Shown here: positions 29,890 through 42,140 of the stretch, piece after piece | How positions within the stretch are numbered: the first letter of the stretch is position 1 | Layout: each line of letters begins with the position of its first letter | From: Symmachiella dynata | GTDB taxonomy: Bacteria > Planctomycetota > Planctomycetia > Planctomycetales > Planctomycetaceae | DNA: 64,000 nucleotides | Direction: 5' to 3' | Assembly (NCBI RefSeq): GCF_007747995.1 | Contig: NZ_CP036276.1 | Location: 440,001-504,000, forward strand | The notes under the pieces: model-generated | Told to the model about the DNA's origin: nothing | What the model saw: only the letters and a program-made list of their open reading frames with translations | Database searches by the model: none | Position numbers and translations under genes: made by a program

Positions 29890-30942
29890 TCAACGTTGGT
29901 AAATCGGCAGGTACTGATACTCCACCGCCAGTGACAGTACCGCCATGGTTGTGGTGTACACGCGGCCGATGCGCTTTTCGCTGCCGTTGCCGGCGGTCCA
30001 ACTGCCGTCGGCCGATTGTTTTTCCAGCAGCACGTCGCGGATTTGGTCCTGCATTGCTGTCCAGTATTTGCCGCCCATTTGAAACATGCCCACGCCGCAA
30101 TAATAGACGCCATAAAAGTAATACGTCTCGTCGTAGCTGAGCGGGTTTTCCAGCAGATAATCGGCGCCGCGGAGGGCCTCTTGGCTGTGGTGTTCGCCAC
30201 AGATTTCCAGAGCCAAAATACCGGTGCCGGTGCGGACGGACGTGACGCTGCCGCCCGGTTGGTAGGCGAAGCCCCCGTCGGCGGCGCTGCTGCAACGTTT
30301 GATGTAGGCGACGGCGCGGTCGATGTTTTCAGCGGGGACATCGCAGCCCAGATTCTTCGCCGCGCGCAACGCCAACAGTTGCCAGCCGCTCACGCTGAGG
30401 TCGCTGTCGCTGCTGCGGACTTGATACCGCCAGCCGCCATTGTTCCGCTCCGACTTGGGGACGTTCTGCGCATTGAGGATCACGCGGATTGCTTTTTCCA
30501 GCGCCGTCCGCACCGGTTTGGCCCGTTCTTTGGAAACCATGCCGGCCACTTCGGCCAGCATCAACGTACTCACGCCGTGGCTGTACATCGGACCGTGACT
30601 GGTGCGAAAGGCGATCAGTCCAGCGTCGTATTGCCCGCTACGTTGGTGGTCGATGACCCATTGGATGCCGCGGTCAATGTTGTCAGCATAGGGACCTTCA
30701 CCGGGAACATGCCCGGCGGCGAGAAACGCCATCACGCCCAGCGACGTGGTCGCCGTCGATTCGCCATAGGCATCCGACTCCCAACAGCCCGATGGTTTTT
30801 GCGTTTTGGCGAGGTATTCGAGAGCGCGGTTGATGGCAGCATCAACGCGACGTTGTTCGGGCGTGGGTGGTTCGGCCCGCGTCGGTGTTGTGGACGCGAA
30901 CAAAAGTGCAGCAGTCATGCTGAGAATGAGCCAGCGGGTCAT
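29890..30942 (-). CDS. Secreted prenyltransferase/squalene-oxidase repeat protein
   Basis: ATG 30942 gives 350 aa starting MTRWLILSMTAALLFASTTP, a signal peptide; the frame is open 17 codons upstream without one. The mature protein is an alpha/alpha toroid of repeats typical of terpene cyclases and prenyltransferase beta chains. Examples are AINRALEYLAKTQKPSGCWE, GIQWVIDHQRSGQYD, RAVAYIKRCSSAADGGFAY and YLLENPLSYDETYYFYG. The catalytic DxDD of squalene-hopene cyclase is not visible, so it is probably not a cyclase. Such exported repeat proteins are common in planctomycetes, with no known role. Repeat RB lies just downstream, and the coiled-coil operon ends upstream. Confidence 0.78.
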   Translation of the reverse strand: MTRWLILSMTAALLFASTTPTRAEPPTPEQRRVDAAINRALEYLAKTQKPSGCWESDAYGESTATTSLGVMAFLAAGHVPGEGPYADNIDRGIQWVIDHQRSGQYDAGLIAFRTSHGPMYSHGVSTLMLAEVAGMVSKERAKPVRTALEKAIRVILNAQNVPKSERNNGGWRYQVRSSDSDLSVSGWQLLALRAAKNLGCDVPAENIDRAVAYIKRCSSAADGGFAYQPGGSVTSVRTGTGILALEICGEHHSQEALRGADYLLENPLSYDETYYFYGVYYCGVGMFQMGGKYWTAMQDQIRDVLLEKQSADGSWTAGNGSEKRIGRVYTTTMAVLSLAVEYQYLPIYQR

Positions 30943-30980
30943 GGGGCACTGTTCGTTTGGGTTAACCGGAAAATCATGAC

Positions 30981-31015
30981 AAAAAAACGGCACCCGATCC
31001 GTGACCGGGCACCGT
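30981..31015 (-). terminator. Intrinsic terminator of the leftward blaI-M56-coiled-coil operon
   Basis: Read on the minus strand, the stem ACGGTGCCCG pairs with CGGGTGCCGT (ten pairs, two of them G-T) around TCACGGAT and is followed by seven T. It lies 65 bp after the coiled-coil gene's stop, facing the right way to end that operon. Confidence 0.8.
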
Positions 31016-31079
31016 CTGTTATACCGCGCGGGATGAAATCATGCGCGTCCGCTTTGTGATTGGCGGCGCGGGGGGACGA

Positions 31080-32480
31080 TCAATAGGCTTCCACATTATT
31101 CTCCTCGCTGGGCAAGACTTCGGCTTCCTCTTCGATTTGCTCAGGCTGGTTGATTGGTGGAAGATCGTAGTCTGGCGTAGGGAGGGGCCGCTCCTCGTGT
31201 TCCTCTTCAATTTCCTCCTCCCTAAGAGCCTGGATGTCGATTTCCTCAATTTCAATCCGTTCGCTGTCTCTCTTTTTTATGTCCCTCTTGTCGAACGGCC
31301 TGAGTTCCTCTTCAACCTCGATTTCGATGTTGCGAGGATTGAGTTCAACTTCAATTTTGCCGCCATGTTTAACGTGTTGTTCGAGCAACTCGTGCATTTC
31401 ACGGACCTCGTTGCGGAGGTTGCGGATTTCGTGGCGGAGATCGTTGAGGGCTCCGTGGACGTCGTCGCGCGGGGCGTGGTCCGCGTGTTTTCTTTCCTGG
31501 CGATTCTTTGCTAGCTCCGCTTTCGAATGTTCTTTTCGCCACCGTCTCAGCAGTGCATTGCGTTCCTTGAGGAGTTCGTTAACTTCGGCATGGAGTTTGT
31601 CGGCTTGTTGCGACAATTCGTTGGCCTGTTCGTTTAATCCCCCTTCCCGGAGGTTGTCAGCAGCACGGCGGAGAGGTTCAATTTTGGGTAATATCTTATT
31701 AATTTCGGACCGAAGGTCGAAGTATTTTGACCTTAAGTTATCAGCCAATGCAATAGAGTGAATCCGTCCTTCAAGCAGAGGCCGCAGTTCTTGGCGTCGA
31801 TTTTGAATTGCTTTTTCAATCTCCTCACGCTCGTGCTGGACTGCCTTAAACACCGAATTGTTAGTGGGGTCTTTCAACTTCTCCTCGTAATTGCTGATCA
31901 TGTTATCTAGCTTCTCGGCCTCAAGAAGAAGTTCCACAATCTTCGGATCGCGTTCGATCAGGGTGCCGATCAATTGGGCTTCGACATTCAATTTTCTTAC
32001 TAACTCTTCGGCTTCATTGCGGGTGGGTTGGTCTAAGTCTGGGGCTTCGTCCGATCGGATGCGCAGCAAACCGGTGGATGACGGCTTCCGTTTGCTATCT
32101 CGTGGAGCTTCAAAGGGTTCTGCGCGTAATGCTTCTTGCTCAGCCGTGGGCTCGGCACCAAACGGATTCTCTGCTTGCTCGTTGGGAGTAAACGGAACGG
32201 CTTCTGCAAATTCGTTGCTTTCGTATTCGGCCGATGGGGCGAAAGCATCGAATGCGGCCTGCTCTTGATAATCTTCTGACGCGGTTGTGAAAAGGTCGTT
32301 GCTTTCTGCTTTGCTAGTGTCCCTATGATAGACACGCCTGCCGCTCATTGATTTAGAAGCCCAAGGGTGTTGAGGTACGGGGTCGTAATCACCGGCAATC
32401 GCGCCGAGGGTCAACCAGCCAGCAGAGGCCAGTGCGATCACCACGATCAGGGTCAGGGTTAAGATGAAAAGACGGCTCAT
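31080..32480 (-). CDS. Membrane-anchored coiled-coil protein of the M56 operon
   Basis: The product is 466 aa. One N-terminal helix (about 3-24, LFILTLTLIVVIALASAGWL) anchors or exports it. A low-complexity acidic stretch (40-155) and a long heptad-patterned coiled coil (about 155-385) follow, then an acidic Glu-rich tail (EVEEELRPFDKRDIKKRD onward). No enzyme domain is visible. Residues 170-240 match a coiled-coil segment of the tyrosine autokinase at 39768-42140 (34 of 71 identical, no gaps). The start overlaps the M56 stop by ATGA, so translation is coupled. A role as substrate, ligand or structural partner of the M56 protease is inferred from that coupling alone. Confidence 0.7.
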   Translation of the reverse strand: MSRLFILTLTLIVVIALASAGWLTLGAIAGDYDPVPQHPWASKSMSGRRVYHRDTSKAESNDLFTTASEDYQEQAAFDAFAPSAEYESNEFAEAVPFTPNEQAENPFGAEPTAEQEALRAEPFEAPRDSKRKPSSTGLLRIRSDEAPDLDQPTRNEAEELVRKLNVEAQLIGTLIERDPKIVELLLEAEKLDNMISNYEEKLKDPTNNSVFKAVQHEREEIEKAIQNRRQELRPLLEGRIHSIALADNLRSKYFDLRSEINKILPKIEPLRRAADNLREGGLNEQANELSQQADKLHAEVNELLKERNALLRRWRKEHSKAELAKNRQERKHADHAPRDDVHGALNDLRHEIRNLRNEVREMHELLEQHVKHGGKIEVELNPRNIEIEVEEELRPFDKRDIKKRDSERIEIEEIDIQALREEEIEEEHEERPLPTPDYDLPPINQPEQIEEEAEVLPSEENNVEAY

Positions 32481-34075
32481 GGGTTAGTCTCCTCGATTTG
32501 AAAAATGGGCGAGTCGGTTGGAAATGTTGAAGTGGATTCGTTGGGCGGTATATGTTGTAGGGTGTCGAGTTGGCGTTCGATGTCAGTGATCCGGTTGCGG
32601 ATGCGGGCGGGCCAGGATTTGAGGCGGGGATCCACGTTGGTCCGTGCCATGAGAGCTTCCAGGTTGTGGAGTTCTTCGCGCAGTCCGGCGAGTTCGGCTT
32701 GCAGTGTGATGTCCTCGGCAAGTTCCTCGAATAGCGGCGCTTCAATCGGTTCGTCGATTACTATCTCGTCAACGCTTGGCGATGGATCGAATGCTGTCGC
32801 GTCCGCGGGTGCCTCCACTACTTCGTCCGCAGTGGATACCGAGAGTGTCGGTAGTGCGAACGTTGCTGTTGGGCCGTGGAGGATCAAGGTGATCATGCTG
32901 ACGAGGACGATTCCAGCCAGACAGAGCGAACGGATTTTTGATGGTGGGTGCCGGGGCTTGTCGTTCTCGACGAGGCTTTCCACACGCTCCGACAGCGTTG
33001 AGCGATGTCCCGTTGCTGCCAGTGAACCGGTGAGGGTTTCGCCGCCGATTCGCCATTGGGCGACGGTTGTTAGGCAATTTGCTAAGGCGAAGCGGTCGCC
33101 GGTGCGGTCGATGGCCCATTCGTCACACAAAAACTCCGCCGCCCGCTGCCACTGCCGTCGCGCCCAGAAGTTGAGCGGTTGATAGGCAAAAGCAGTGCAG
33201 AGCAGCCGTCCCATGCACAACCACCAGATATCACGGCGGACGAGATGCGCCAGTTCATGGGCGAGCAACGACCGCAATTCCTCGCGAGTCAATTCCGCCT
33301 CCGCTCGAGTAGGAAGTACAATGTGCCAACGCCACAAACCAAACGCCGCCGGTTCGGCGTACTGGCCGGACGACAACAGGCGGACATTTTTGCTGCGGCG
33401 TTGTTGGGCTAAGAGGCCCGCCAATTCGTCCGCTGCGGGTCCCTCGGTCAGCAACCGGCAATCGGCGAAGCGTCGCCGCAGCCAAATCGTTTGCCCCCAC
33501 AACCGCGTGAGTCCTAACAGAAAACACCCCACCGCCGCGACCGAAACAGCAATCACGATGCGCGGATCCCAAGGAGCGGGAGGTGTCACGACTTCGGTCG
33601 TATTGATTGGCGGTGCGATGTGGGTCGGGGTGGGAATTGTCGCGACGATTTCCGGCGGCGCGAGTTTCAATTCATCGAAGTCATCGGCTGGGGGGATGTC
33701 AGTTTCTAACTCCGGTACGAAAGCGTCGTGCGGAGCTTCGTCTAGAGTGGCAATGTCGTCAGTTACGACCGGGATGTGCGGAGCAATCTCGATCATGGAG
33801 ATTGTTGGCGTATTGGTGCTGCTGTGATAATCCACCGTGGGGGTGCTGACTTCTGAATCCGGCAGCATGTCGGGTAACCATAAAGCCAACGGGGCGGTCA
33901 CAAACGCGGCTGTCGCGCCGGCTTTCCAGAGTGCGCTGCGCAATGCCGGGCGAGCGGTGCGATGCCAACAGAAGTACAACCACACGCCCGCCAACAAACA
34001 GGTAGAGTGCAACAGGTAGGTCGCCAGAAATGCCAAAACGGGAGCTGCGTAATGAGCCAGGTTAGTGGGCATCAC
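32477..34075 (-). CDS. M56-family (BlaR1-like) membrane metallopeptidase
   Basis: This is a 532-aa sensor protease. Two N-terminal membrane helices precede a Pro/Asp/Glu-rich stretch (about 85-165), and further helices lie around 175-195 and 385-405. The zinc site is AHELAHLVRRD (HExxH, about 272), with the downstream Glu in RAAEFLCDEWAID. Unlike BlaR1/MecR1 of staphylococci, the C-terminal part has no penicillin-binding domain. It ends in a short coiled coil (LAGLREELHNLEALMAR). It overlaps blaI by 14 bp and the coiled-coil gene by 4 bp. The expected job is to sense an envelope signal and remove the BlaI-type repressor by proteolysis; the signal is unknown. Confidence 0.83.
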   Translation of the reverse strand: MMPTNLAHYAAPVLAFLATYLLHSTCLLAGVWLYFCWHRTARPALRSALWKAGATAAFVTAPLALWLPDMLPDSEVSTPTVDYHSSTNTPTISMIEIAPHIPVVTDDIATLDEAPHDAFVPELETDIPPADDFDELKLAPPEIVATIPTPTHIAPPINTTEVVTPPAPWDPRIVIAVSVAAVGCFLLGLTRLWGQTIWLRRRFADCRLLTEGPAADELAGLLAQQRRSKNVRLLSSGQYAEPAAFGLWRWHIVLPTRAEAELTREELRSLLAHELAHLVRRDIWWLCMGRLLCTAFAYQPLNFWARRQWQRAAEFLCDEWAIDRTGDRFALANCLTTVAQWRIGGETLTGSLAATGHRSTLSERVESLVENDKPRHPPSKIRSLCLAGIVLVSMITLILHGPTATFALPTLSVSTADEVVEAPADATAFDPSPSVDEIVIDEPIEAPLFEELAEDITLQAELAGLREELHNLEALMARTNVDPRLKSWPARIRNRITDIERQLDTLQHIPPNESTSTFPTDSPIFQIEETNP

Positions 34076-34457
34076 GGTCCTCCTTTTCGCGGGCGCGAAT
34101 CAGCGCTTTGAGGCGGGCCAATTCATCGGCATCGACATCGCAGCCATCGAGCAAGTGCGCGACCATCTGCGTGACGTCGCCGGCAAAAAGCCGGTCGGCA
34201 AGGTCGGTGACCATCGAGCGGCTGACTTTTTCTTGATCGATCGCCGGCCGATAAATGTGTGCTCGGCCCTCGATCCGATGAGCGACGTAGCCTTTGCGTT
34301 CCATCTTGGCCAACATGGTGGCGATGGTGGTGTAGGCCAGCGGACGTTCGTCGTGCAGGTCCTCGCGGACATCAGCCACGGTCGCTTCGCCCCGCTTCCA
34401 GAGGACTCGCATAATGGCAAGTTGCAAAGCGGCGAGTTGATGATTGGGTTCGGTCAT
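34062..34457 (-). CDS. BlaI/MecI/CopY-family transcriptional repressor (leftward operon)
   Basis: The 131-aa winged-helix repressor has HQLAALQLAIMRVLWKRGEA, then TVADVREDLHDERPLAYTTI and ATMLAKMERKGYVAHRIEG, the DNA-binding part, and a helical dimerisation tail. The start at 34457 (ATG) is weakly supported by GGAG 12 bases upstream. It is transcribed with the M56 gene, whose first codons overlap its end. Its likely binding sites are the CTACTACC-type inverted repeats listed at 34477-34525, which cover its own promoter, so autorepression is expected. Despite the family name, a beta-lactam role is not supported. Confidence 0.88.
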   Translation of the reverse strand: MTEPNHQLAALQLAIMRVLWKRGEATVADVREDLHDERPLAYTTIATMLAKMERKGYVAHRIEGRAHIYRPAIDQEKVSRSMVTDLADRLFAGDVTQMVAHLLDGCDVDADELARLKALIRAREKEDRDAH

Positions 34458-34476
34458 GGGGTGGTTCGGCTCCTGT

Positions 34477-34525
34477 CTACTACCAAGGTAAGAGACATGC
34501 TACTACCGCAGTAGAATGTCGTCAA
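34477..34525 (-). promoter_or_regulatory. Promoter and two BlaI-type operators of the leftward operon
   Basis: On the minus strand TTGACG (34525-34520) and TAGCAT (34502-34497) are separated by 17 bp, a good sigma-70-like promoter. The inverted repeat CTACTACCGCAGTAG (34500-34514) lies across the spacer and -10 box. A second, weaker site CTACTACCAAGGTAA (34477-34491) lies just downstream. Site position predicts steric repression. Confidence 0.7.
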
Positions 34526-34619
34526 GTGGAATTCCGCAGGCTGAAAAAAGCAAAGGAAATCGCCCGTTCAGTCGGCGGTGCGGCCCAAGGGGATTGGTTT
34601 GAGGAACCGGAGGCTGTTG

Positions 34620-34696
34620 TGCGTAAAAATACGCATCCCTATTGACAGCTTGGCAGCGCGGCGGTATCGTGGCCGATTAGGTGTTAAAAAATACAC
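34620..34696 (+). promoter_or_regulatory. Promoter flanked by two palindromes, rightward blaI-M56 operon
   Basis: TTGACA (34642-34647) and TATCGT (34665-34670) are 17 bp apart. A perfect palindrome TGCGTAAAAATACGCA (34620-34635) lies just upstream of the -35 box. An imperfect one of the same plan, GTGTTAAAAAATACAC (34681-34696), lies at the expected transcript start. They are 61 bp apart centre to centre. They differ in sequence from the leftward operators, implying separate repressors. Confidence 0.65.
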
Positions 34697-34722
34697 ACAC
34701 TCAGCGGCCTAAAGGGATTGAC

Positions 34723-35115
34723 ATGCCACGACCACCACAGGCACAGCTCAGTCGGCGGGAACGTCAAATCATGGATATCGTTTATCGTCGCGGCTCCGCG
34801 ACGGCTGCCGAGATCCGCGCAGAACTCGCCGACCCGCCCAGCTATTCCACCGTCCGCACGTTGCTGCGGGTGCTCTTGGAAAAAGGGCACTTGAAACACA
34901 AACAAGACGGCCCGCGGTATGTCTATTCGCCCACACTCTCGGCCGAAAAGGCCCGCCGCTCGGCGCTGAAACAAGTCCTCACCACCTTCTTCGACGGCTC
35001 CGCCGAAAAAGCAATGGCCACACTCATCGACATGTCCTCGGCCAAGCTTTCCCAACAAGATCTCAACCAACTCGCCCAATTGATCGAACATGCCAAACAA
35101 GGGGAAAAGAAATGA
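34723..35115 (+). CDS. BlaI/MecI/CopY-family transcriptional repressor (rightward operon)
   Basis: ATG 34723 with AAAGGGA just upstream gives 130 aa (MPRPPQAQLSRRERQIMDIV). The upstream in-frame start at 34681 lies in an operator-like palindrome. The winged-helix part is RRGSATAAEIRAELADPPSY, then STVRTLLRVLLEKGHLKHK. The dimerisation tail has FFDGSAEKAMATLIDMSSAK. It is coupled to the M56/STN gene by an ATGA overlap (35112-35115). It likely binds the TGCGTA- and GTGT-type palindromes in front of it. It is only moderately similar to the leftward BlaI, so the two probably do not regulate each other's operon. Confidence 0.88.
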   Translation: MPRPPQAQLSRRERQIMDIVYRRGSATAAEIRAELADPPSYSTVRTLLRVLLEKGHLKHKQDGPRYVYSPTLSAEKARRSALKQVLTTFFDGSAEKAMATLIDMSSAKLSQQDLNQLAQLIEHAKQGEKK

Positions 35116-37730
35116 ACACACTCTTCGAGTCCTTTAGTTCGTCGTTTACCGGTAACAATGCGTCAGCATTTGCGTTCGATATGGCGGTGCGTTCAACGGT
35201 TCTGCTGCTAGTGGCGCTTATTGCATTGGCCATTTGCCGCCGCGCTTCGGCAGCGGCTCGGCATCGGCTGTGGTTGTTGTCGGTGGTGGGGGTGTTGTTG
35301 ATTCCCATTTTGTATCTGGCGGCGCCGCAACTGAAATTCGCGTTGCCCGGTGGTGATAAACCGGCGCGTTTCTCGGAAGCGACGTCGATCACTTCGCAAT
35401 GGCTGTTCACGGAAACAATTCCAAGCAGCAAGCCAAACAGTGCGCAGCCAGCAACGCCTGCTAGCCCTGAAACGTTAGAGACAGCAAGTAAGATGAGCGT
35501 GGTCGTTGATGCTCCTGCGTGGCACACCGGTGACGTGCTACTCGTCGCCTGGGCTGCCGGGGTGGTGATCGTGGGGCTGCTGAGTTTGATCAGCATCGCC
35601 TCCGCTCAGCTATTAGTGCGCAAGTCAGCGGTGTTGACGGATGATGCTTGGCAGGGTTTGTTGTTGTCGTTGCGGGAACAACTCGGGATTTCGCGGATGG
35701 TGCAACTGCGTAGCTGCGATCGGCCGATTTCACCGATGACGTGGGGGCTGTGGCGGCCGGTGATTTTGTTGCCGCGGGATTGTGCGAGCTGGACGGATGA
35801 GTGTCGTCGGGCGGTGTTGCTGCATGAACTGGCGCATATTCAACGGCACGACTGGTTGTCGCAGATGTTAGCTCAAACGGCGTGTGTGGTGTATTGGTTT
35901 CACCCGTTGGTGTGGTTCGCAAACCGTCAAGTGCGCAAAGAGAGCGATCGTGCCGCTGACGACGTGGTACTGACCGCCGGGATGCCGGCAACGACGTATG
36001 CGGAACAACTGCTGGTGATCGCCCAACAGATTTCAACCGAGTGGCTGCACCCGGCACCGGCGATGGCGCGGCGCGGGCAATTGTCGCAGCGGATTGGCGT
36101 ATTACTCGACCCTCGCCGTAATCGCCGCGGTTTGGGGCGACGTGCGGCGGTGCTGATGACGGTCGTTGCGATTTGCGCAGTGGCATTTATTGGAGTGGTC
36201 TCAGTGACGGTGGCTGAGGACGAAGCATTAGCAGCAAAACCAACTTCCGCATCGAAGCCCGCGACCGCTGATGACAAACTGACTGAGGCGAAAAAGCGGA
36301 TCGAACGGGCGTTGCAGAGTAAACTGGATGTGGAAATTGAGGACATGCCGCTTCAGGAGGTGGCGAAATACTTTGGTCGTCAATTGGATGTGAATGTGTG
36401 GATAGATGAAGCTGCGATCAACCAGCAGGGACTGCGCGTTGATACACCCATGACCATAAAACGAAAAAGTATCTCCGCCCATTCTGCATTAACGGAGTTG
36501 CTCGGACCATGGCAGCTAGTCGCCGTCGCAAACGGGGATGTATTACAGATCACAAGAGACCCGTTGACCAACCGAGAACGGATCGAGCGGGAATTGCAAA
36601 ACACAACGGAAGTCGACTTCCAGGATCAACCCTTAACCGACGTCGTCTTGTATCTTAAGGATTTGCACAACATCCAAATCGTCATCGACGATGCGGCGCT
36701 CAATGACGCGGGGATTGATCCTGACTCGCCGGTGAATATGACGCTGGCGGGGAACACGGCTGAATTCGCGCTGCGGTTAATACTGGAACCATTGGGGTTG
36801 GAAGCGGTGGTCGATGATGATGTGCTGAAGATCACCACTAAATCCGTGGCGGCGGGGATTTTGGAAACGCGCGTTTATGATTTGAAGAACATCTTGGGAT
36901 CGGCTTGGGGACCCCAGCAGGTCGACTTGTTGCGTCAAGCGATCATCAAGTGCGATACTCCGACTACGTGGACCGAGGCGGGGGGGGCGGGGGTGATCGC
37001 TCAAGGTCCTGCTACAGACGAGGAGCAAATCGACACCTCCGCAGCCGGGATTCTAGTCATCCGCCAGACAACAAACGTGCATCAGCAGATTCTGGAATTG
37101 CTGGCCGATCTGCGGTCGGTTTTAAATCCACCCGGCGAGAAAACAGCAGAGCTGACGACGCGGGAGAAAAACGAACAGGCAATCCGCAAAGCATTGGCCT
37201 CACCCACAGAGGTGGACTTTCAGGATCAACCGTTGACTGATGTCGTCTTGTATCTTGAGGATTTGCACAACATCCAAACCATCGTCGATGACGTGGCGTT
37301 GAACGACGAGGGGATTTCGACGGATACGCCGATTAGTCTGACCCTGGCCGGTATACCGCTACAGAAGGTCCTGCGACTCATGCTGGGGCCCATAAAACTA
37401 CAGGCAGTCCCTTATGGGGAAGTCTTGCTGATTACGACTGCATCCAGGGCCAAGGAACTGCAAATTGTGCGGATTTATGACGTGAGCGACGTGCCGTTTG
37501 GCCAGGATCCCAAAGTATTGGCCGCCACGATTCAATCCACCGTTGCGCCTGGCAGTTGGAAAGGGGCCAAAGGTGGTGGTGCGATAGCTCCTTTCAGTGG
37601 TTCGATATTGAGGCCGGAAAATCAAATTGACCCCTTTCGCGTAAACAATCTGCTCATCGTCCGCCAAACCGAACAGGGGCACGAGCAGGTGGCGGCGTTG
37701 TTGAAACAGCTACGGCGGGTAAAACGGTAG
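35112..37730 (+). CDS. M56 (BlaR1-like) metallopeptidase fused to three secretin-N/STN-like repeats
   Basis: This is an 872-aa membrane protease. N-terminal membrane helices (about 20-40, 52-75, 135-155) surround the M56 domain, with zinc motif LHELAHIQRHD at about 238-242 and the downstream RKESDRAADD. A further helix lies near 345-365 (AVLMTVVAICAVAFIGVVSV). Beyond it, outside the membrane, are three repeats resembling secretin N-terminal/STN domains. They start at about VEIEDMPLQEVAKYF (405), VDFQDQPLTDVVLYLK (500) and VDFQDQPLTDVVLYLE (700). The last two form exact 200-residue units, each with a second half ending in LVIRQT. No penicillin-binding domain is present. The signal sensed is unknown, but peptide, polysaccharide or envelope-protein binding by the repeats is the natural inference. 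The start overlaps blaI by 4 bp. Confidence 0.82.
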   Translation: MNTLFESFSSSFTGNNASAFAFDMAVRSTVLLLVALIALAICRRASAAARHRLWLLSVVGVLLIPILYLAAPQLKFALPGGDKPARFSEATSITSQWLFTETIPSSKPNSAQPATPASPETLETASKMSVVVDAPAWHTGDVLLVAWAAGVVIVGLLSLISIASAQLLVRKSAVLTDDAWQGLLLSLREQLGISRMVQLRSCDRPISPMTWGLWRPVILLPRDCASWTDECRRAVLLHELAHIQRHDWLSQMLAQTACVVYWFHPLVWFANRQVRKESDRAADDVVLTAGMPATTYAEQLLVIAQQISTEWLHPAPAMARRGQLSQRIGVLLDPRRNRRGLGRRAAVLMTVVAICAVAFIGVVSVTVAEDEALAAKPTSASKPATADDKLTEAKKRIERALQSKLDVEIEDMPLQEVAKYFGRQLDVNVWIDEAAINQQGLRVDTPMTIKRKSISAHSALTELLGPWQLVAVANGDVLQITRDPLTNRERIERELQNTTEVDFQDQPLTDVVLYLKDLHNIQIVIDDAALNDAGIDPDSPVNMTLAGNTAEFALRLILEPLGLEAVVDDDVLKITTKSVAAGILETRVYDLKNILGSAWGPQQVDLLRQAIIKCDTPTTWTEAGGAGVIAQGPATDEEQIDTSAAGILVIRQTTNVHQQILELLADLRSVLNPPGEKTAELTTREKNEQAIRKALASPTEVDFQDQPLTDVVLYLEDLHNIQTIVDDVALNDEGISTDTPISLTLAGIPLQKVLRLMLGPIKLQAVPYGEVLLITTASRAKELQIVRIYDVSDVPFGQDPKVLAATIQSTVAPGSWKGAKGGGAIAPFSGSILRPENQIDPFRVNNLLIVRQTEQGHEQVAALLKQLRRVKR

Positions 37731-38647
37731 CGGCCGTTGTGGAAAGGGCGTGTGCTTTGAGTCGCTGCATTGGGCGATTCCGTGCCACCGGTCTGTTTGC
37801 GATTTTCCGCAATTCCGGATTTTGGGGTAAATCAGAATTGCAAAGCGTTACCGGGCGAATCAGAATCATCGTTCGGTAGGCCCTGGTTTGCCTACTGGGA
37901 AGGCCGTTTTTTTAATTGACCCAAAGCCCGTTTCCAGCCCGTTTTTTATTGACAGCCTGTTCGAATCGTCCAAAATAAGGGGGCGGTCCGGTTTGATCGG
38001 CGCATTCCGTCGTAACGTACTGTTCGACGAGCGTGTTGTCGATGAAAAGTGATGTTGCGTTCAAACAACAATTGGGGCGCCGAATCGGGAAATGCTGTTA
38101 GGGGGCATCATCGGCAGGGGAAGGTGGAAAAGGAATTCGAGCTCAATACAGCGGGAATAGCCGCTTGGCGCGAGAGTCTGACCCTTCCTGTTCGACTTCG
38201 GTATGAAACGTGCTAGGGAGTTAGGCACGAATGTTGACAACCGGGAAATCGGCCGGTCGGTCTTGATAGCGATACGAAACGAAATACCGTTACGTTTGTT
38301 ATTCTAAGAACAGAACCGGCTAGACCGCCTGATGCAGTCTGGGAATTGATCCACGACGGATATCGACGTGTTAGACTGCTCAAAGGAAGCTGCGGCAAGA
38401 TGCCGCGCCAGTCGCAAGAAATTCGGCAACGTGCCGCATTCTGCCTGCGGCTAGCGTTTGATTTTACGACAGTACGGTGGTCAGTGACTGCCGGTCGGGG
38501 AATTGAGCCGTGCATGTTTCACGGGGCAAGGACGCATGGAATTGGAATCCAATGAGAACGGTGATTGCAACCGATGGGGACGGAGTCCGCGCTGAACGCA
38601 GGGATAGTGATCGTCAGAAGCACGAAGTGATTCGAGGAGTATAGCCG
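37731..38647. other. 917-bp intergenic region before the exopolysaccharide locus
   Basis: No coding frame here is convincing. A possible terminator lies at 37874-37913 (listed separately). A candidate promoter TTGACA (37949-37954), 16 bp, CAAAAT (37971-37976) follows it. The remainder has several small hairpins (for example CGGCAAGATGCCG at 38391-38403). This may be a long 5' leader of the exosortase transcript, but I recognise no riboswitch class in it. Confidence 0.45.
37874..37913 (+). terminator. Possible terminator after the M56/STN gene
   Basis: GGTAGGC pairs with GCCTACT around CCTGGTTT. After nine more bases comes a run of seven T (37907-37913). An alternative longer stem uses GGCC...GGCC right before the T run. 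The gap between the first stem and the T run weakens the call. Confidence 0.4.
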
Positions 38648-39631
38648 GTGGGAACCAGCGAAAAGAATTCAAAACCAGTATTCGGCGTCCAGGTTTGGGT
38701 TGGATTAGCCGTCCTGCTGGCAGCCGTTATGTGGGCCTATTGGCCGACGGTCACGACCATGGCGGGAAAATGGGAGAACGATCCCCAATACTCGCACGGT
38801 TGGCTGGTGCCGTTATTCGCAATTGCCTTGTTGTGGCTCCGCTGGGATAAGCTGGAACCGGAAAACCTCAAAACCAGTTGGTGGGGCGTCGGCCTGTTGG
38901 TGCTGGGGGCTGCGATGCGGCTGGGGGCTGGTTGGATCAACTTCGACTGGTTTGACGGGATGTCCATCATTCCGACACTAGCAGGCCTGTGCATGCTGTT
39001 CGGCGGTATGGCCGCCATGAAATGGGCCTGGCCGGCATTTGCCTTTTTGGTCTTTATGGTTCCGCTTCCGTTCCAAGTGGAACGGATGATGATGGGGCCG
39101 CTGCGAAATCTGGGCACCGTGACCAGTTCGTACGTGATGCAGACGCTCGGTCTTCCCGCCATCGCCGAAGGAAACATCATTCACCTGGGCGAACATACGA
39201 TTGGTGTGGCCGAAGCGTGTAGTGGATTGCGGATGTTGGTGATCTTTTTTGCCCTGTCGGCGGCTGTGGCCTTGATCATTGATCGCAACATTTGGGTCCG
39301 GTTATTGATTCTAGCCAGCGCGATTCCGATTGCGTTGATCTCCAATATTGCACGGATCACCGTCACCGGCATGGCGTATCAGTTGGCCAGCCCTGAATTG
39401 GCGGAAAGCTTGTTCCATGATTGGGCGGGTTGGCTGATGATGCCGTTTGGACTGTTGCTACTTTGGGGAGAATTGTGGCTGCTTTCGCACCTGTTCATTG
39501 AGGAATCCGACGACGACTACGACTCGTTGGCCATGGGTTTCTCCAGGACGGCGACAGCGGCAAATCCCAAGGATGGTGGGGCCGATTCGGATGCGAAAGG
39601 GTCGGGCAAAATTCATTTGCCACTACCTTAA
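38648..39631 (+). CDS. Exosortase (EpsH-like transpeptidase)
   Basis: This is a 327-aa integral membrane protein with about eight hydrophobic helices. The exosortase/archaeosortase catalytic residues are visible: Cys near 191 in EACSGLRML, Arg near 236 in SNIARITVTG, and His near 257 in FHDWAGWL. GTG 38648 is supported by AGGAG nine bases upstream. Exosortases cut PEP-CTERM-like signals and attach proteins to an extracellular polymer or lipid. Its position at the head of an exopolysaccharide cluster with an EpsI gene fits the EpsH-type subgroup. No PEP-CTERM substrate protein was seen in the window. The subgroup (XrtA, XrtU or other) I leave open. Confidence 0.9.
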   Translation: MGTSEKNSKPVFGVQVWVGLAVLLAAVMWAYWPTVTTMAGKWENDPQYSHGWLVPLFAIALLWLRWDKLEPENLKTSWWGVGLLVLGAAMRLGAGWINFDWFDGMSIIPTLAGLCMLFGGMAAMKWAWPAFAFLVFMVPLPFQVERMMMGPLRNLGTVTSSYVMQTLGLPAIAEGNIIHLGEHTIGVAEACSGLRMLVIFFALSAAVALIIDRNIWVRLLILASAIPIALISNIARITVTGMAYQLASPELAESLFHDWAGWLMMPFGLLLLWGELWLLSHLFIEESDDDYDSLAMGFSRTATAANPKDGGADSDAKGSGKIHLPLP

Positions 39632-39646
39632 GGGCGGAAAGAATAG

Positions 39647-39678
39647 AAACCTCGTCACCCGTGGTGGCGACGAGGTTT
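39647..39678 (+). other. Perfect hairpin between exosortase and autokinase genes
   Basis: AAACCTCGTC (39647-39656) and GACGAGGTTT (39669-39678) are exact complements around ACCCGTGGTGGC. No T run follows, so it is not a standard terminator. It may stabilise the transcript end or attenuate reading into the autokinase gene. Confidence 0.6.
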
Positions 39679-39767
39679 GAGTTGAAACATATTTGCGTAG
39701 AAATTTTTCAGCTGGACATGGGCAGCCGGTAATAGACCGACTGACTTTACCCCTGAGCCGAGACATC

Positions 39768-42140
39768 ATGATGCAATCAAATCAAGAACCAAACCACTAC
39801 CGAAACGGAAATGCCGGCGTTCCAGCGTACACCAATGGTGGTGGCGGTGGTGGTGGTGGAGCGCTCGTACCGGTTGGTAATGGCATGGAACCATCGCCGG
39901 CCTCGATGGGGGGCAATGAGGGAGCCGGTCAGGTTGATCCCAAGGCATTGTTGAATGCATTTCGTCGCCGGTGGTTTTTGGCGGTGACGGTCGGTTTGTT
40001 TTGTGGAGGGAGCGCAGCAGCTGCGGTGTACTTGTTGGTGCCGCCGAATTACGTCGCGTCATCCATCGTTTACATCGACGCCACACCAGGGACGGTGTTG
40101 CAGGATAGCAGTTCGTTTAGCAGCGATTTTGATACCTTCAAGCGAACGCAAATGTTCCGCGCGTTGCAGCGCGTCGTGTTGGATACCGCTTTAAGCGAAC
40201 CGGTTCGCAACAGTGAACTGAAGCGATATGGGTTCAAAACAATCGGCGACCTACCGCTAATCAAGGCGCAAGCGTTTCCGATCGATTGGTTGGAAGCGAG
40301 ACTCTCCGCGTCGGGACGCCAAGAGGAATTCTTTGCGATCAAGATGGAGTATAGCGAAAAACCGGAGGAGTTGGCGGAGATCGTCAACGCCATCACGCAG
40401 GTCTATTATCGCGACATTGCGAACGAATCGAAGCTCCTTGACAAAAAGCGGATTGCTATGTTGATCGAGTTGTCCGACGACTACGAGCAAGAGACCAAAA
40501 AGAAGCTTGACGAGATAGCAAAACTAGGGCGGCGCCTGGGCATTACCAGTGAAGAGGAACTTAGCCTGGACATTGCCGCCGACAACGCATTCTCCAGAGA
40601 GCTGCAGCAACAATACTTTGACCTCACGATCATGCGGTACAATTTGAAATTAGAGACCCGGATTACGGAAAAAATTGGGGATACCGTCGAGGAAAATCCT
40701 GATATTCAAGCCGAAATGATCGAGACACTCATCGATCGTGATCCGAAAATGGCTGACCTATTAGTCAAAGCCGATGCGATTGAGGCGAATATCCGTCGAT
40801 ATGAAGAAACATTGAAAGACACGGAAAACAACTCGGTGCTGAAGTCTGCACGCCGTGAGCAAGAAACAACTCAAGAAGCGATCGCAAAATACCGTGAAGA
40901 ACTCCGGCCGATCATCGAGCAAAAAATCCGTGAAAGTGGCAACGCTCAAAACCCAGACGATTTACCCGCTGAGGAACGGATTGCGAGGATGGATGTTATC
41001 CTCGAGCAATTAAAAGAAGAGCTCGACAATCGGAAAATACAAAAAACACAGATCGTAACGGACTCGTTTGAATTGCAACAACTGCAAAAAGAAGCAGCCA
41101 AGTTAGAGGCTCGAACTGATGAGATCAATAACAAAATCGATGTGCTGAAGATTGAATTGGGTGCACCGGATCGAATTAAAGTCGCGCAATGGGCTGAAGT
41201 TCCGCGGATCAAGGATTGGGAATCGCTGTACAAAAAATCGGCGATGGCCGGCTTGGGCGTGTTTGGACTGTTTGTCGCCGCCATTGTTTGGTTTGAATTC
41301 CAAGCAAAACGGATTGATACCTTGGGCGACGTGACCGGCGGTTTGAACTTGCGAATCATGGGAGCCTTGCCGCAAATGCCGCGGTGGGCCAGCCAAAAAT
41401 CCTCCAAGGCGAAGAAGACAGCCAAGAGTGCGTTTTGGCACAGCGTGCTGACCGAATCGATCGACGCGGCTCGGACGGTGTTGATTCGCGATGCGAATGT
41501 GGAATCGACCCGGCTGGTGATGGTTGGCAGCGCAATTTCCGGTGAAGGCAAAACAACGTTGTCCTGCCATCTGGCAGCCAGTTTGGCCCGTGTCGGCCGA
41601 AACACGTTGCTTGTCGACTGCGATTTCCGAAAATCCAATGTGCACCGAGTCTTCGGTGTCGAAGAACAACCCGGCTTGAGTGAAGTTTTGTTGGGGACAG
41701 CGTCGCTGGAAGAGGCGATTAAATCGCCGAGCGACGACGGCCCGGATGTCCTTCCCGCCGGTCAATTCAATTCGCAGCTATTGGCGGCACTGGCTCAAGA
41801 TGGTTTGGGCAAGATCTTCGAAGAACTCAAGAAGAAATACGAATTCGTTGTCGTCGATTCCTCCCCAGTGTTGCCGGTCACCGATTCGTTGATGGTCGCC
41901 CAGCACGTGGATGCGGTGATCCTTTCGATTCGCCGCGACGTGAGTCGTCGTCCCAAAGTGGCCGCCACACGCGACCGGTTGGCCATGTTGGGCGTTCCGG
42001 TATTAGGCGCGGTTGTGATCGGTCTGGATGGTGAGACGAGCGGATACCGTTCCGGATACGGCGGTTACGGGTACGGTTCGCGCTATGGCTACGGCTACCA
42101 ATACAATCGTTCGCCCGAACCAACACCTTCGCAATCGTAA
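39768..42140 (+). CDS. Polysaccharide co-polymerase with BY-type tyrosine autokinase
   Basis: The product is 790 aa from ATG 39768 (a second ATG follows at once). A Gly-rich N-terminus (GGGGGGGGALVPVGN) is followed by a Wzz domain with a first helix (about 65-90, FLAVTVGLFCGGSAAAAVYLL). A long coiled coil outside the membrane (about 200-480) and a second helix (about 495-515) lead to a cytoplasmic kinase. The kinase has Walker A SGEGKTT (about 590), Walker A' LLVDCDFRKSN and Walker B FVVVDSSPVLP. The C-terminal Tyr cluster (SGYGGYGYGSRYGYGYQY) is the autophosphorylation tail. It controls chain length and export of the exopolysaccharide. Codons 40716-40928 encode a segment shared with the coiled-coil protein at 31080-32480. 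Confidence 0.9.
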   Translation: MMQSNQEPNHYRNGNAGVPAYTNGGGGGGGGALVPVGNGMEPSPASMGGNEGAGQVDPKALLNAFRRRWFLAVTVGLFCGGSAAAAVYLLVPPNYVASSIVYIDATPGTVLQDSSSFSSDFDTFKRTQMFRALQRVVLDTALSEPVRNSELKRYGFKTIGDLPLIKAQAFPIDWLEARLSASGRQEEFFAIKMEYSEKPEELAEIVNAITQVYYRDIANESKLLDKKRIAMLIELSDDYEQETKKKLDEIAKLGRRLGITSEEELSLDIAADNAFSRELQQQYFDLTIMRYNLKLETRITEKIGDTVEENPDIQAEMIETLIDRDPKMADLLVKADAIEANIRRYEETLKDTENNSVLKSARREQETTQEAIAKYREELRPIIEQKIRESGNAQNPDDLPAEERIARMDVILEQLKEELDNRKIQKTQIVTDSFELQQLQKEAAKLEARTDEINNKIDVLKIELGAPDRIKVAQWAEVPRIKDWESLYKKSAMAGLGVFGLFVAAIVWFEFQAKRIDTLGDVTGGLNLRIMGALPQMPRWASQKSSKAKKTAKSAFWHSVLTESIDAARTVLIRDANVESTRLVMVGSAISGEGKTTLSCHLAASLARVGRNTLLVDCDFRKSNVHRVFGVEEQPGLSEVLLGTASLEEAIKSPSDDGPDVLPAGQFNSQLLAALAQDGLGKIFEELKKKYEFVVVDSSPVLPVTDSLMVAQHVDAVILSIRRDVSRRPKVAATRDRLAMLGVPVLGAVVIGLDGETSGYRSGYGGYGYGSRYGYGYQYNRSPEPTPSQS

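Follow-up and report, generated by a model that had tools for sequence, protein, structure and literature searches.

Why should the third protein of an operon for a BlaI-type repressor and an M56 metalloprotease resemble part of a machine for exopolysaccharide export? The question is raised by a stretch of 64,000 nucleotides, the window of this study (bases 440001-504000 of the single-contig 7.77 Mb genome of Symmachiella dynata, G000), in which the first-pass annotation had noticed a coiled-coil segment common to the product of the gene after M56 and to a tyrosine autokinase encoded about 9 kb away. In what follows, third protein denotes the product of the gene after an M56 gene, and CCP the coiled-coil third protein of the BlaI-M56 operon in the window; a congener (G001) and a third genome of the genus (G002) served for comparison. 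As set out below, the segment is very probably a piece of the periplasmic helical arm of a polysaccharide co-polymerase kinase, now lying in the variable middle of CCP.

Pairwise alignment bore out the ungapped match of 71 residues that had been claimed: CCP residues 170-240 (31761-31973, minus strand) align with kinase residues 342-412 (40716-40928, plus strand) with 34 identities, 52 positives and no gap (70 bits), and the anchors named at first pass (ERDPK/DRDPK, YEE-LKD, NNSV and ELRP) are present in both segments. The alignment of the full proteins spans CCP residues 165-248 and kinase residues 337-420, with 37/84 identities and an E-value of 8e-18 for the single comparison. That such a match is not fortuitous, as the first-pass annotation had also held, was confirmed by shuffling CCP residues 151-375 in three ways, with 2000 shuffles of each kind: without constraint, within heptad positions, and with the class of residue preserved at every place. 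The real Smith-Waterman score of 205 was reached by 0/2000 shuffles of each kind, the best scores being 86, 92 and 167, respectively, and the reversed sequence scored 49. A search of the whole genome with the kinase segment (E<=1) returned three places only: apart from its own location, these were CCP (4.4e-16) and a stand-alone Wzz-like protein (5e-4). When 22 third proteins from M56 operons, CCP included, were compared with the kinase segment, CCP scored 177 and the next best 44. Likewise, a profile of 29 Wzz/kinase rows gave 37.1 bits for CCP and 5.6 for the next third protein; when the two neighbouring kinases were removed, the remaining 27 rows still matched CCP residues 160-246 with 24.1 bits (E 3e-8; next third protein, 7.2), the result by which the CCP arm hairpin groups with the co-polymerase arms. 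Judged by these comparisons, CCP and the co-polymerase kinase are homologous over this segment, which in the kinase is enclosed by the two membrane helices (hydrophobic helices at residues 98-116 and 516-534). Of the two relations to the Wzz part suggested at first pass, mimicry is thus supported, as mimicry by descent, and pairing is a tentative possibility.

CCP itself is not a co-polymerase. No Pfam family scored above its own cut-off in CCP, the Pfam scan revealed no kinase domain, and the Wzz head (PF02706) gave no match at E<=1. CCP has one hydrophobic stretch (residues 4-22) rather than two membrane helices flanking a periplasmic part, and neither of the two PDB matches that it gave was better than E 0.2. 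Given its N-terminal hydrophobic stretch, CCP is taken as exported, and would share the periplasmic compartment with the kinase arm. In the kinase, PF02706 reached 19.1 bits, under the cut-off of 25.5, and the frame of the congener's kinase starts at the counterpart of the ATG at 39768. PDB searches gave significant matches in the kinase domain, some reaching residue 519, and a profile of the arm region matched coiled coils at E 0.004 and worse, with no Wzc among the 30 sequences listed.

The best-kept part of the match is a loop, YEEKLKDPTNNSVFK in CCP and YEETLKDTENNSVLK in the kinase, where 11/15 residues are identical versus 23/56 elsewhere (p 0.04, for a block chosen by eye). Within the arm segment, 17 proteins of the kinase's kind follow the consensus IxRYExxxxDxxHPxLxxYRxEL, and residues 330-345 of E. 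coli Wzc read ISKLYTKVHPAYRTLL. By order and motif only, the CCP loop may correspond to the tip of the Wzc arm that docks on Wza. This tip is described as contacting Wza through K332, Y334, T335 and H338, and the quadruple change of these residues as abolishing colanic acid production (PMC12881504); in the account of a 2021 Wzc structure, the arm region is a mobile helical bundle required for function (PMC8285477).

The congener allows the earlier state of the gene to be approached. All 12 query proteins between 28154 and 43980 have counterparts in the same order in G001 (L047), where CCP is 423 aa long and matches the window protein at residues 1-31, 59-169 and 258-465, with no match between these blocks. 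The congener's CCP lacks the kinase-like segment and has a full hairpin 1 instead. With a hairpin-1 profile of 41 positions, the congener's CCP and eight outgroup proteins reach position 41, and a ninth outgroup protein matches from position 6; the other 11/20 outgroup third proteins, of other builds or cut, gave no match. The window CCP matches positions 1-20 only (residues 150-169), and the kinase-like core begins at residue 170. On the simplest reading, the full hairpin 1 probably came first and later had its second half replaced.

DNA comparison with the congener gives further detail. Identity is 110/123 in the last 123 bases of M56, 70/93 for CCP residues 1-31, 60/99 for residues 137-169, 65/132 for hairpin 2 (263-306; 10/44 at third positions), 88/90 for the C-terminal motif, or C motif (341-370; 30/30 at third positions), and 148/180 across the stretch of 60 codons that starts at residue 370. 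The transition lies roughly between residues 326 and 342. Because third positions contrast so sharply between hairpin 2 and the C motif (10/44 versus 30/30, p 2e-12), the middle of the window CCP is not the direct counterpart of that of G001, though hairpin 2 belongs to one family in both. On these DNA identities the CCP gene is a mosaic.

As for direction, the kinase is collinear with its relatives, a profile made without the neighbouring kinases matching it over positions 1 to 293 and CCP only within residues 151-246; transfer from CCP as donor to the kinase as recipient is ruled out by this collinearity across the whole region. In a tree, CCP fell beside the two neighbouring kinases and was separated from the 27 other sequences (ultrafast bootstrap, UFBoot, 95), the two kinases joining each other (80) and CCP standing on a long branch. 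When G000 is compared with G001, the kinase has a synonymous divergence (dS) of 0.34 and M56 one of 0.32; within the segment stretch, the two kinases are 0.32 apart, versus saturated silent sites (NG86 undefined) for the CCP segment against either of them. The CCP segment is also equally far from its own kinase (34/71) and from that of G001 (35/71). At identical residues, equal codons were found at 16/34 places between CCP segment and kinase versus 51/62 between the kinases (p 5e-4); the 16/34 proportion does not differ significantly from that between the kinase and the Wzz-like protein (33/92, p 0.30). These data suggest that the segment is probably older than the species split, and it would have left the kinase lineage after the kinase and the Wzz-like protein separated; G001 may alternatively have undergone a loss that was restored by exchange. 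Since 48% amino-acid identity persists despite saturated silent sites, the segment has, by this measure, been under selection.

Features of the locus, with positions in the window
Feature	Position	Strand	Evidence
BlaI-type repressor, 131 aa	34062-34457	-	PF03965, 113 bits
M56 (BlaR1-type) metalloprotease, 532 aa	32477-34075	-	PF05569, 62 bits; congener 85% identical
Dyad CTACTACCGCAGTAG, candidate BlaI operator, over promoter-like site (34525-34497, minus)	34500-34514		Single match in window
CCP, coiled-coil third protein of the BlaI-M56 operon, 466 aa, taken as exported	31080-32480	-	Open reading frame
CCP residues 4-22, hydrophobic: signal peptide or membrane anchor	32415-32471	-	Hydropathy 2.4 over 19 residues
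CCP residues 150-169, sole remnant of hairpin 1 (its first part)	31974-32033	-	Profile positions 1-20 of 41
CCP residues 165-248, kinase-like segment (core 31761-31973)	31737-31988	-	37/84 identities; 24.1-bit profile match
CCP residues 198-212, YEEKLKDPTNNSVFK, putative copied hairpin loop	31845-31889	-	11/15 identical to kinase
CCP residues 270-302, hairpin 2, common to other third proteins	31575-31673	-	Profile 43.9 bits; DNA saturated versus congener
CCP residues 340-368, C motif, mark of third proteins	31377-31463	-	Profile 46.2 bits
Terminator-like stem 3' of CCP	30985-31017	-	15 pairs, loop 3, T tail; scan 8 found versus 5.0 expected
Polysaccharide co-polymerase with BY-kinase domain, 815 aa as listed, putative donor lineage	39693-42140	+	TIGR01007, 121.2 bits (cut-off 108)
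Kinase residues 342-412, matching part of periplasmic arm	40716-40928	+	Ungapped alignment

Searched against planctomycete proteomes, as the first-pass annotation had proposed, the segment does not turn up in most coiled coils. Profile A3, built from the CCP segment, the kinase and the kinase of G001, matched 2/170 family genomes at E<=0.001, namely G000 (in CCP, the kinase and the stand-alone Wzz-like protein) and G001 (in the kinase and the Wzz-like protein). The CCP segment alone matched 4/150 family genomes at E<=0.01, two of them weakly, in frames of 3536 and 885 aa. In a sample of the class, 20/397 genomes matched the profile (at most 13 candidates scored per genome). The 18 places outside the genus were weak (E 6e-7 to 8e-4), and 15/18 share their frame with a kinase domain; three have no kinase domain in the frame (L156, L157 and L159, E 5e-4 to 8e-4). 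A common planctomycete module is ruled out by the presence of A3 in only two family genomes and by the preponderance of kinases in the class sample. Within the searches made, CCP is the sole clear carrier of the segment that is not a co-polymerase. The stand-alone Wzz-like protein of G000 (C1:1355064; L003, L050), of 473 aa and without a kinase domain, is a paralog of the window's kinase and has counterparts in G001 and G002.

The CCP gene lies directly 3' of M56 on the same strand, their ends overlapping by 4 bases. M56 was matched in 42/150 family genomes, 40 of them outside the genus, and 20 of these 40 were sampled for third proteins; in G002, neither M56 (E<=1e-20) nor CCP (E<=1e-4) was matched. 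The build of the third proteins is very variable, and the C motif, a coiled-coil motif of 29 residues, is kept, being present in 15/20 outgroup third proteins; three of the five without it are cut by the stretch end. In whole-genome searches it was matched once in G000, once in G001 and more weakly once in G002, and across the family in 44/170 genomes at E<=0.001. Among the best 28 of 46 C-motif places, 18 are preceded by a same-strand M56 match no more than 5 kb away, and two of the ten without a nearby M56 are in genomes outside the coverage of the M56 search. When the 13 genomes that contributed to the profile were left out, 5/15 places followed M56. At the window locus and at loci L081-L100, the motif occurs in coiled-coil third proteins and in others that we read from their sequence as secretin-like; because it is present in both alike, it is a plausible handle for M56, which suggests CCP as a partner of the protease. 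Another third protein (L082:3267-5450, G052) has two stretches with HPEV loops resembling co-polymerase hairpins; it matches the Wzz/kinase profile weakly (5.6 bits) and is possibly a second, independent case.

Upstream of BlaI, the candidate operator dyad CTACT-N5-AGTAG is the only match in the window versus 0.12 expected, and a dyad of the same pattern is present in the congener. The promoter scan found 2 sites versus 1.8 by chance, and promoter and terminator scans were both near chance, the dyad excepted. BlaI control of the exopolysaccharide operon was considered and rejected: TACANNTGTA with one mismatch has two matches in the window, neither of them near the BlaI-M56 or the exopolysaccharide operon, and the dyad is found only at the BlaI promoter.

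Taken together, the comparisons are consistent with the following explanation. A piece of the kinase arm has very probably supplanted the second half of hairpin 1 together with the linker that follows. The segment most likely reached this genome as part of a diverged CCP allele through recombination, one boundary of which would coincide with the onset of the C motif; we favour this route with some reserve, our confidence in it having been lowered because the segment and the CCP N-terminus are not told apart by the silent-site test. In function, a separate exported CCP could do the work of the sensor domain of BlaR1-type proteins, which the M56 protein appears to lack. The copied hairpin would be a periplasmic arm module that packs against the kinase arms or docks on the outer-membrane Wza-type translocon, and the M56-BlaI relay would thereby feel the state of exopolysaccharide export. 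Such sensing via arms or translocon is a tentative proposal to which we give a little less than an even chance; descent, the putatively shared compartment and the retention of the loop speak for it. More speculative, and in our estimation unlikely, is a version in which the relay captured a decoy of the co-polymerase arm that reports the assembly state of the machine to the protease. The CCP hairpin might here insert into the ring of kinase arms or occupy the docking site on the translocon, and third proteins might be interchangeable sensor modules attached to a constant C motif, whose target changes when they acquire part of the object to be sensed.

The same origin could also have left a mere spacer, a hairpin swapped within a fast-changing exported coiled coil that makes no contact with the export machine. 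We regard this as a serious possibility, if a less than even one, since the congener's CCP manages without the segment, third proteins vary in build yet keep the C motif, and no operator is common to both operons. A spacer would hardly be expected, however, to keep 48% identity across saturated silent sites, nor to keep its loop best, given that a coiled coil would presumably keep core positions instead. A recent copy from the neighbouring kinase within the window's own lineage, followed by very fast change in place and no allele exchange, would suit the short distance of 9 kb between donor and recipient and a CCP that evolves fast throughout (66/130 identical residues in the N-terminal part versus the congener). 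It is nevertheless improbable, as the segment is saturated at silent sites against two kinases that are themselves only 0.32 apart, is as near to the congener's kinase as to its own, and is accompanied by a hairpin 2 that is not kinase-derived and is saturated too. Chance or convergence in composition between two charged helical hairpins, a known hazard with coiled coils, is scarcely credible and is ruled out by the three kinds of shuffles and the 21 other third proteins, together with the start of the match where hairpin 1 stops and the lack, in the whole-genome search, of any unrelated coiled coil that matches as well.

Several observations tell against the explanation of a transplanted arm hairpin with a sensing role. 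The proportion of equal codons in the segment (16/34) is not significantly distinct from that in the CCP N-termini (40/66, p 0.21), so that the segment can be dated less securely than dS alone would imply. Because the sequences scored with the hairpin-1 profile were also those used to iterate it, its scores are optimistic. Synonymous divergence between G000 and G001 varies elsewhere at the locus, reaching 0.81 over the opening 100 codons of the gene at 29890-30993 and as much as 0.72 within the second M56 gene described below. The profile comparison of the planctomycete arm with Wzc gave a probability of 0.5%, which is not significant, and single changes of Y334 and T335 in Wzc are described as having little effect or raising production (PMC12881504). 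A dyad scan of the window detected no candidate BlaI operator before the exopolysaccharide operon, and therefore no regulatory link between the two operons was found. Moreover, the form of CCP with the segment is known from one genome.

With respect to known systems, the CCP segment is homologous to the arm of a neighbouring planctomycete member of the Wzc-type co-polymerases with BY-kinase (TIGR01007), whose helical arm in E. coli Wzc is also called 'motif 3', and by order and motif its loop occupies the place of the Y..HP tip of Wzc. Unlike Wzc, CCP is devoid of the kinase domain, the Wzz head and the second membrane helix, and the link between the planctomycete arm and Wzc falls short of firm homology, resting on order and motif with no significant match. 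The operon is like the BlaR1/MecR1-BlaI relay in combining repressor and M56 protease, with a candidate operator at the promoter. In BlaR1, an outer sensor domain is described as controlling the protease that cuts BlaI (PMC9834060). Unlike BlaR1, no Pfam family of penicillin-binding sensor domains was detected in the M56 protein or in CCP, and a separate exported third protein, which may take the sensing role, is present instead. No paper on a planctomycete M56-BlaI or BlaR1/coiled-coil operon was found, and the broader literature gave no such title among those listed, which is no proof of absence.

Mosaic genes formed by recombination of diverged alleles are a general phenomenon, and the CCP gene resembles them in its foreign middle within a conserved frame, its abrupt DNA boundary and its flanking genes kept in order. 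What sets it apart from the usual case is the nature of the foreign piece, an internal hairpin taken from a neighbouring gene in another pathway. The new point here is a transplant within a mosaic gene, recognisable since the congener has the probable older form. The locus offers a traceable case of an internal piece of an envelope machine in the probable partner of a nearby sensor protease from another system, in which the donor lineage, the recipient, the DNA boundary and the probable older form can each be seen. Should the copied hairpin still bind its former partner, the case would illustrate how a BlaR1-like relay that has no antibiotic-binding domain can gain a new input. In addition, the M56-BlaI operons of the family gain a candidate partner protein with a recognisable C-terminal motif.

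The exopolysaccharide cluster (38648-61212, plus strand) contains, beside the kinase, an exosortase, an EpsI-like protein, glycosyltransferases, O-antigen-ligase-type and heparinase-type proteins and an asparagine synthase, and the five Poly_export (Wza-type) matches of the genome all lie outside the window, Poly_export proteins being placed near C1 positions 2537179, 1246182 and 1580607 of G000. A second, divergent BlaI-M56 pair occupies 34681-37730 on the plus strand, its M56 protein carrying secretin/TonB-type short domains. This second M56 protein is 872 aa long and its counterpart in the congener 781 aa; an additional repeat unit, located within residues 301-491, apparently accounts for the difference.

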